A stretch of DNA of 64,000 nucleotides from Pectinatus sottacetonis (GTDB lineage Bacteria > Bacillota > Negativicutes > Selenomonadales > Selenomonadaceae). The position numbers and the translations under genes are program-made. Positions 24,256 to 25,937 of the stretch are shown piece after piece. The notes beneath the pieces were generated by a model. The model did no database searches. It saw only the letters and a list, made by a program, of their open reading frames with translations, and had not been told where the DNA came from. The DNA lies in assembly GCF_015732155.1 (NCBI RefSeq), contig NZ_WIQK01000001.1, forward strand, positions 2,180,001 to 2,244,000, written 5' to 3'. Numbering within the stretch: position 1 is the first letter of the stretch; each line of letters opens with the position of its first letter.

Positions 24256-24294
24256 TAAAAAACCAGACAGGAGAGGCTCCTGTCTGGTTTTTAT
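24256..24294 (+). terminator. Bidirectional terminator, ftsW / AdoMetDC-like gene
   Basis: A perfect 16-bp stem, 24258-24273 with 24277-24292 (core ACCAGACAGGAG / CTCCTGTCTGGT), 3-nt loop, flanked by A- and T-tracts; fits termination of both convergent transcripts. Confidence 0.9.
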
Positions 24295-24309: not shown

Positions 24310-24807
24310 TTAGTTTTCTATATTTTGTTTATTTTTTCGGCGTAATTTTTTTACAAACTTACGTCCTGGCAATAAGTGGATTACCTTTACTCCTGTATTT
24401 TGAATACGTCGTAATGGGGCAGTACGTACTTTAATGTGTGGTTTCATATCAGAAATAGTTCCAAAATCACCACGGCATAAATAAGTTATTTTTATTTTTT
24501 CTGGTTTTATAACTTTTCTTAAAGCACGGACAGCTTTTTCAGAAGAACTATCCTGATTGCAGATAAATAAATCTATAGCGACATAACGCAGAGTAGAATA
24601 GATATGAGTAGTAAAGTGCCCCTCCATAAGTGGGATGAAAACAATAAAATGATCTTGTTCTACCCGTTTTATATTCATTTCTAATACGGTTAATCCAACT
24701 TTATGGAGAGTATTTTTTAAAGCAACAGACAGTAAATCAATATTTACTATTTTTTCAGGTTTGCAATTATACATATCAATTGCGAGCTGACGTGCTAAAA
24801 TTTTCAC
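24310..24807 (-). CDS. AdoMet decarboxylase (class 1b)-like protein lacking the processing serine
   Basis: A 165-residue protein whose first 120 residues follow the prokaryotic S-adenosylmethionine decarboxylase fold (IDMYNC, KVGLTVLEMN, YVAIDLFIC). In the Thermotoga enzyme Ser63 self-cleaves to the pyruvoyl cofactor, with His68 and Cys83 as helpers. Here residues 62-68 are EGHFTTH: position 63 is Gly (codon GGG at 24621-24619), while H68 and C83 are kept. Without Ser63 no pyruvoyl group can form, so AdoMet decarboxylation is unlikely; a regulatory, binding or structural role is possible. A basic C-terminal tail (KFVKKLRRKNKQ) is added. It begins with GTG behind AAGGAG, 11 bp after rpoD, so it is the last gene of dnaG-rpoD. 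Confidence 0.85.
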   Translation of the reverse strand: MKILARQLAIDMYNCKPEKIVNIDLLSVALKNTLHKVGLTVLEMNIKRVEQDHFIVFIPLMEGHFTTHIYSTLRYVAIDLFICNQDSSSEKAVRALRKVIKPEKIKITYLCRGDFGTISDMKPHIKVRTAPLRRIQNTGVKVIHLLPGRKFVKKLRRKNKQNIEN

Positions 24808-24818
24808 ACAAATGCTCC

Positions 24819-25937
24819 TTATTCGAGGAAATCTTTTAACTTTTTACTACGACTGGGATGACGCAGTTTCCGCAAGGCTTTTGCTTCTATTTGGCGAATA
24901 CGTTCACGTGTAACGCCAAAACTCTGACCGACTTCTTCCAGTGTTCTGGCTCGCCCGTCATCCAGGCCGAAACGCAGTCGCAATACTTTTTCTTCTCTAG
25001 GAGTAAGTGTTTTTAAAACCTCTTCAAGCTGTTCCTTTAGCAGGACAAAAGAAGCTGCATCAGCGGGAGCAGGAGCATCATGGTCTTCAATGAAATCACC
25101 AAGATGTGAATCTTCTTCTTCTCCTATAGGAGTTTCCAAAGATACCGGTTCCTGGGCAATTTTCATAATTTCGCGAACCCGTTCAACACTTACATCCATT
25201 TCCTTGGCAATTTCTTCTGGTGCCGGATCACGTCCTAGGGATTGTAAAAGTTGACGTGAAACACGAATAAGTTTGTTTATTGTTTCTACCATGTGAACAG
25301 GAATACGGATGGTTCTTGCCTGGTCGGCAATGGCACGTGTTATAGCCTGTCGTATCCACCATGTGGCATAAGTACTGAATTTATAGCCTTTATTGTAATC
25401 AAATTTTTCTACAGCCTTTATTAAACCGAGATTACCTTCTTGTATAAGGTCAAGGAAAAGCATCCCACGGCCAACATATCTTTTAGCAATGCTGACAACT
25501 AGCCGCAGATTAGCTTCTGCCAATTTCTTTTGAGCGGCAATACTGCCCTGTTCCATCTGTTTTGCTAATGTGATTTCTTCATCAGCACTAAGCAGAGGAA
25601 CTCGCCCAATTTCTTTGAGGTACATACGAACCGGATCATCAATATTTATTCCTTCTGGAATGCTAAGATCAATATCGTCATCCGATTTATCATCAGAGGA
25701 GCCCTTTTTATGTGATTTTTTTTCATCAGCTTCGTCAACGAAATTTATACCCTTTTTGGTAAATTTTTCATATAACTCATCTATTTCTTCTGGTGACAAA
25801 TCAATGTTCTGTAGAGCTTCCATAACCTCACCATATGTCAGAACGCCGCCTTTTTTTTGTCCTTTTGTGAGTAACTTTTTTATAAATTCGGCACTTTGCG
25901 AGACAGTCGTAGATGCTTGTTTAGTTACTTGTTGCAT
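24819..25937 (-). CDS. rpoD: Primary sigma factor RpoD (SigA)
   Basis: A 372-residue sigma-70 factor with a short region 1.1, an acidic linker ([12 protein letters not shown]), region 1.2 ([11 protein letters not shown]), region 2 with -10 recognition ([20 protein letters not shown]), region 3 and region 4 with the -35 helix-turn-helix ([20 protein letters not shown]). It directs RNA polymerase to housekeeping promoters, consistent with the near-consensus promoters in this window. It lies 52 bp after dnaG, as usual in Firmicutes. Confidence 0.98.

Follow-up and report, generated by a model that had tools for sequence, protein, structure and literature searches.

A class-wide AdoMet decarboxylase paralogue of the Negativicutes with a conserved C-terminal tail and repeated changes of its pyruvoyl-forming serine

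What is the function of a protein that resembles AdoMet decarboxylase (AdoMetDC, SpeD) and lacks the serine from which that enzyme makes its cofactor? This question is raised by a short gene of Pectinatus sottacetonis, located in a stretch of 64,000 nucleotides that is referred to here as the window (Table 1). A preliminary description of the locus had proposed a retained pseudoenzyme, tied to the neighbouring dnaG and rpoD genes and acting in housekeeping transcription or replication. Our analyses suggest that the job of this protein does differ from its annotation, and they place it in a much wider family, most members of which have neighbours of another kind.

Fold and active site of the window protein

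The closest named relatives of the window protein are those of Pectinatus, in the class Negativicutes. Judging by an AAGGAG sequence over the rpoD stop codon, a gap of 11 bp between rpoD and the gene, and a stem-loop with a T-run downstream, the gene looks like the last of a dnaG-rpoD operon in the Pectinatus sottacetonis genome.

Table 1. Features of the locus, in window coordinates.
Feature	Position	Strand	Basis or remark
Tailed AdoMetDC-like pseudoenzyme gene (putative)	24310..24807	-	165 aa, GTG start
AdoMetDC-fold core, residues 1-113	24469..24807	-	PF02675 and AlphaFold2 model
Gly63 codon at the pyruvoyl-forming Ser position	24619..24621	-	Gap-free alignment to the T. maritima enzyme
Conserved motif RGDFG..DMKP..K, residues 112-126	24430..24474	-	Conservation in 129 Ser-less sequences
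Basic C-terminal arm, residues 127-165	24313..24429	-	Charge count; AlphaFold2 model
rpoD, upstream neighbour	24819..25937	-	Linkage seen in Pectinatus only
Putative ribosome binding site AAGGAG	24815..24820	-	Overlaps rpoD stop codon; by eye
Stem-loop and T-run, probable terminator 3' of the gene	24259..24292	-	By eye

The core is readily recognised. Residues 8-113 match PF02675 (AdoMet_dc) with 70.7 bits against a cut-off of 25 (E 1.5e-19), and a profile of the family aligns residues 1-117 to the AdoMetDC of Thermotoga maritima (1TMI, 1TLU, 1VR7) without a gap. Because of this alignment the residue numbering E62-G63-H64, H68 and C83 is correct, which bears out the preliminary description, where E62-G63 had been placed at the processing site in Thermotoga numbering with H68 and C83, residues of processing and catalysis, retained. 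The AlphaFold2 model has a mean pLDDT of 78.6, and its best structural matches are four chains of the T. maritima enzyme (1vr7, 1tlu, 1tmi), with TM scores of 0.87-0.88 by target length at 28% identity. This comparison of the model with the T. maritima chains confirms the AdoMetDC fold.

The protein shares with class 1b AdoMetDC (SpeD; TIGR03330, T. maritima TM0655) the fold, the gap-free stretch, H64, H68, D79 and, in many relatives, C83. It differs from that enzyme in Gly63, in lost pocket residues, in Asp11, where all four canonical rows have Glu, and in a C-terminal extension. The TIGR03330 equivalog model, the sole one listed for it at E <=1, gives 64.8 bits, under the cut-off of 75.65, and TIGR03331 (class 1a SpeD) does not appear in that list. 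It had also been claimed that the processing residue alone was lost. That proved too narrow, as F, P, S and E of the four canonical rows are replaced here by V49, Q51, I55 and T72. Because F49, S55 and E72 are gone, AdoMet binding, one of the roles proposed earlier, looks unlikely in the window protein.

Glycine is unable to form a pyruvoyl group, so the decarboxylation mechanism of the family should be closed to the window protein. A sequencing error at this codon had been named as a possible refutation. It is ruled out, because glycine is found at this position in all 31 family loci that were read first and in all 47 rows of the alignment A2.

The C-terminal tail and residue 63 across the class

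Behind the core the window protein carries the RGDFG..DMKP motif and a basic arm, as do the other copies of a tailed paralogue found across the Negativicutes. The net charge from residue 118 onward is +12 in the window protein and ranges from +5 to +13 over 75 tailed rows. Confidence in the modelled arm is low, with pLDDT below 50 at residues 132-148 and a predicted helix at 149-163. None of the Pfam, NCBIfam or PHROGs models covers the tail above its cut-off, and no credible homologue was found among PDB sequences. The best of these matches (9szu, E 0.0033) was rejected as a chance match; the chain is repetitive and no single stretch of it passes alone.

How widely is this protein distributed? 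Profile A1, built from 14 tailed sequences, matches 237 of 250 sampled Negativicutes genomes, 194 of the 197 good ones and 86 of 91 genera; the 80 loci retained from the contig scan with A1 are titled Selenomonadaceae or uncultured Veillonellaceae/Selenomonadales, and the class names of other families come from kinship labels. PF02675 matches 148 of 151 genomes of the family to which the window belongs and 241 of the 250 of the class. In a sample of the phylum A1 matches 135 of 199 genomes. Outside the class these hits extend no further than model position 130 of 153, apart from three that get to 134, 140 and 143 only by running through stop codons, and all five out-of-class loci that were read encode a plain, tail-less class 1b SpeD. 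A tail-only profile matches 13 of 299 phylum genomes, including all ten class genomes among those listed, each at E 5e-11 or better. The remaining matches, in three of the other 289 genomes, are weak (E 3e-5 to 1.2e-4), two running through stop codons and one lying within an unrelated ORF of 347 aa. No credible match to the tail was thus found outside the Negativicutes with this profile in the 299-genome sample. Viral contigs yielded no relative by A1 or by a peptide pattern, plasmids no tblastn match to the window protein, and phage records a single weak, core-only tblastn match at 24% identity.

Judged by its sequence, the window gene represents in Pectinatus a paralogue of class 1b AdoMetDC that is found class-wide. 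Three genomes (L170, L171 and L172) encode a tailed copy with Ser63 together with a tail-less class 1b SpeD that has canonical motifs (ISESHLAIHTWPE), and because both are found in one genome the tailed and canonical proteins are paralogues. The tailed protein can also be lost, because a few near-complete genomes of one family, f15 (G164, G242 and G290), have no PF02675 match whatsoever.

The motif and the arm are better conserved than the core. Among 129 sequences without Ser63, R112 is kept in 129, G113 in 128, D114 in 111 and F115 in 119, followed by D/E120 in 129, K/R122 in 128 and P123 in 129. The canonical catalytic and pocket positions are kept far less often, with an aromatic residue at position 49 in 9 sequences, P51 in 6, S/T55 in 33, E62 in 67 and E72 in 41. 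Still common are H68 (119), an aromatic residue at position 70 (127) and C83 (104), which tells against a complete loss of the pocket; what is left of it may still have a ligand in these copies. D11, C15 and D79 are nearly fixed. Mean column entropy in 61 Ser-less rows is 1.28 bits for residues 112-126, 1.90 for 127-146 and 2.31 for the core.

Selection acts in the same direction. In 16 pairs of at least 80% identity, all Gly/Gly and from named Selenomonadaceae-type loci (the Ser63 copies have no close pairs), dN/dS is 0.071 for the whole protein. Split by region, the core has 0.089, with 165 nonsynonymous changes, the motif 0.021, with 6.5, and the tail 0.016, with 6.0. When pairs were bootstrapped, motif and tail together had the lower value than the core in all 1000 of 1000 replicates. 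These estimates show that fold, motif and arm are held by strong purifying selection. They agree with the preliminary description on two counts, that the pseudoenzyme is retained and that a basic tail has been added; this tail does exist, and it is under tighter constraint than the core.

The reading of residue 63 covers the retrieved loci, which hold 149 distinct tailed sequences, a subset of the 237 matching genomes. The residue is Gly in 119, Ser in 20, Cys in 4, Ala in 2 and Thr, His, Phe or Val in 1 each. All the Selenomonadaceae copies that were read have Gly63. Whether position 63 is always something other than serine had been put forward as a check: this is so for the copies linked to rpoD (Gly in four of four), but it does not extend to the wider family with its 20 Ser63 sequences. 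Twelve of these 20 also have T55, E62, H68, E72 and C83. Seven have lost Cys83, and because of that loss their Ser63 may not be a working residue. In five loci (L153, L158, L167, L169 and L181) Phe83 replaces Cys83, and there Ser63 is probably not a working residue.

Near-copies were removed, which left 103 rows, and random sampling of the rows of family f1 cut these to 79 for a tree. On this quick tree, which has SH-aLRT support only, few columns, 28 open forks and some long rows, a branch with SH-aLRT 100 divides the tailed rows from four canonical ones, and the states Ser and non-Ser require 9 changes, of which at least 4 are forced by starred branches. Loss of serine is the natural direction, because the canonical outgroup has it. 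The tree shows, within these terms, that the pyruvoyl-forming Ser63 has changed several times independently in the tailed paralogue. One Ser63 row, L183 of family f13, lies inside a Gly clade on a branch of 1.4, and may be a misplacement or a reversal.

Gene neighbours and polyamine genes

Does the company of the gene hint at its role? We looked for rpoD, at 50% identity or more and up to about 5 kb on each side, at 120 further loci. Besides the window it is found next to the tailed gene at 3 of the 120 (L034, L035 and L036, all Pectinatus) and at none of the other 117 loci tested, with a contig end less than 1 kb upstream of the tailed gene at no fewer than 12 of the 120. By eye, the recurrent neighbours elsewhere are an lgt-like gene in many Selenomonadaceae, ctsR/mcsA/mcsB-like genes further upstream in other families, and recD2-like and HAD-like genes in family f15. 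None of these recurrent neighbours is shared in a way that points to a pathway. The dnaG-rpoD linkage noted earlier is therefore genuine in the window and is not a property of the family, as rpoD adjacency was seen in Pectinatus only. A role tied to rpoD is rejected on the loci searched, where the neighbours elsewhere differ by family, and the proposed part in housekeeping transcription or replication is not supported.

The polyamine genes of the genome lie elsewhere. The whole Pectinatus sottacetonis genome has two PF02675 matches. The second, a class 1a SpeD (TIGR03331), belongs to a cluster that contains, by eye, an Orn/Lys/Arg-decarboxylase-like gene, speE and an agmatinase-like gene. The earlier remark that no spermidine synthase lies nearby is accurate for the neighbourhood but not genome-wide. 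A second canonical speD and a speE had been suggested as things to look for: speE is present, and the class 1a speD is present but split. The interrupted gene occupies L003:5191-7233 (about 2443190-2445232 of contig C1), with the ORF of an ISAs1-family transposase at L003:5565-6668 and, by eye, inverted repeats at the edges of the insertion. In three genomes of the same genus (L239, L240 and L241) the class 1a speD is a single ORF of 273-279 aa, in each case above the TIGR03331 cut-off.

Many genomes of the class have two or more PF02675 matches, and so do all 20 genomes whose tailed copy reads Ser63. By a hand count, the tailed protein is the sole PF02675 match in about 56 of the 197 good genomes, 21 of them from the family of the window, 30 from f15 and 5 from others, and each has an A1 match. 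Four of the sole-match genomes that have a speE-like gene were examined (L235-L238), and all four have an nspC-like gene near it, three above the TIGR01047 cut-off and one just below. One of the four also has a carboxynorspermidine-synthase-like gene, below its cut-off. In these genomes spermidine may come from the carboxyspermidine route, for which AdoMetDC is not required.

What the protein may do

The reading that we consider moderately probable is that the tailed protein is a non-catalytic scaffold of AdoMetDC fold that acts by means of its C-terminal arm; the arm perhaps binds RNA, DNA or another polyanion. The fold would provide the scaffold, probably as a dimer, and the RGDFG..DMKP motif would dock together with the cationic arm on a polyanion, for which RNA, the ribosome or DNA are the likeliest candidates. 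Docking on a protein or a membrane would be less likely. Polyanion binding by the arm is a tentative proposal drawn from its charge and conservation; it is our best guess, though taken by itself less probable than not. The paralogue would have acquired a second job first, with catalysis dropped later in several lineages. This order of events is probable, because tailed copies with Ser63 share the motif and the arm and sit beside another SpeD homologue. A bolder version is a long shot: the former decarboxylase would have become a non-catalytic regulator, the old pocket region sensing diamines and the arm binding an RNA or a partner in envelope synthesis, and would thereby couple polyamine supply to the peptidoglycan, which in this class is diamine-modified and holds the outer membrane in place.

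Could the protein still be an enzyme, with another residue providing the cofactor or with a reaction independent of a pyruvoyl group? Changes of substrate are known among SpeD homologues. Li et al. (2023) describe pyruvoyl-dependent homologues with new substrates, and SpeDA and SpeDC, which act on arginine or ornithine and often lie beside a second SpeD, resemble the tailed protein in having a new role (PMC10407285). These are, however, active pyruvoyl decarboxylases with Ser63, which the window protein has replaced by Gly63. The H68, aromatic residue 70 and frequent C83 of the Ser-less copies would suit a remaining activity, but according to the same paper S63, H68 and C83 are all essential to self-processing of the T. 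maritima proenzyme (PMC10407285). Moreover, most Ser-less copies have G, A, F, V or H at position 63, and no nearby Ser, Thr or Cys is invariant: at position 66 a T, S or C occurs in 44 of 68 rows outside the group with intact Ser63 and Cys83. When 150 positions are ranked by conservation, 49, 51, 55, 62 and 72 come 100th or lower. We judge a surviving enzyme to be quite unlikely. We also consider a small-molecule sensor unlikely; its remodelled pocket would bind a nucleotide, a diamine or AdoMet, with the arm signalling to a regulator or an RNA. The fold and part of the pocket are kept, and the peptidoglycan of Negativicutes is polyamine-modified (PMC10628300), so diamine supply matters to them, but most Ser-less copies no longer have F49, S55 and E72.

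Another thought is that the dead paralogue pairs with a canonical SpeD and activates or regulates it, as the AdoMetDC prozyme does in trypanosomatids. The fold is shared, many genomes of the class have the two or more PF02675 matches that such a pair would need, and a catalytically dead AdoMetDC paralogue that activates the live one is known from Trypanosoma brucei (5tvm, 5tvf; PMC5201418). That prozyme is larger, of eukaryotic type and works with a live AdoMetDC, whereas the tailed protein often has no live partner. Partnership with an active paralogue, which the preliminary description had also raised, cannot be the general role, because some 56 of the 197 good genomes have no other AdoMetDC homologue; the nspC-like genes of the four genomes examined and the split class 1a speD of Pectinatus sottacetonis itself also count against it. 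We hold such a pairing to be decidedly unlikely. Self-cleavage has also been lost by other AdoMetDC domains, namely in the Victivallis SpeD-SpeDC fusion and in class 2 AdoMetDC, where it is the C-terminal half (PMC10407285). Those domains are fused to a live one, whereas the tailed protein stands alone. A functionless, decaying relic of a duplicated speD is barely credible: catalytic residue and pocket have been lost and the gene is missing from a few near-complete genomes, but it is present in nearly all good genomes of the class and its dN/dS is low.

A loss of catalysis on this scale would have consequences for annotation. An AdoMet decarboxylase call based on PF02675 is very unlikely to be right for the tailed gene in a large part of the Negativicutes, and polyamine predictions that rest on this gene would therefore be wrong for gut, rumen and oral members of the class. 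Pathway predictions are affected in the genomes where it is the only PF02675 hit. The family also offers a natural series from enzyme to non-enzyme, with several changes of the same catalytic residue within one family and one class, and with Ser-bearing and Ser-less relatives available for comparison.

The near-fixed tail points to a job for which we found no description in the literature searched. No account of the tailed protein turned up in full-text literature, a scope that leaves most subscription journals outside, and the main text of PMC10407285 has no mention of Bacillota, Firmicutes, Negativicutes, Sporomusa or Veillonella. One entry may concern a relative: Vpar_0438, an annotated AdoMetDC of Veillonella parvula that could be either paralogue, is listed with a value of -18 in coaggregation (PMC6529473).
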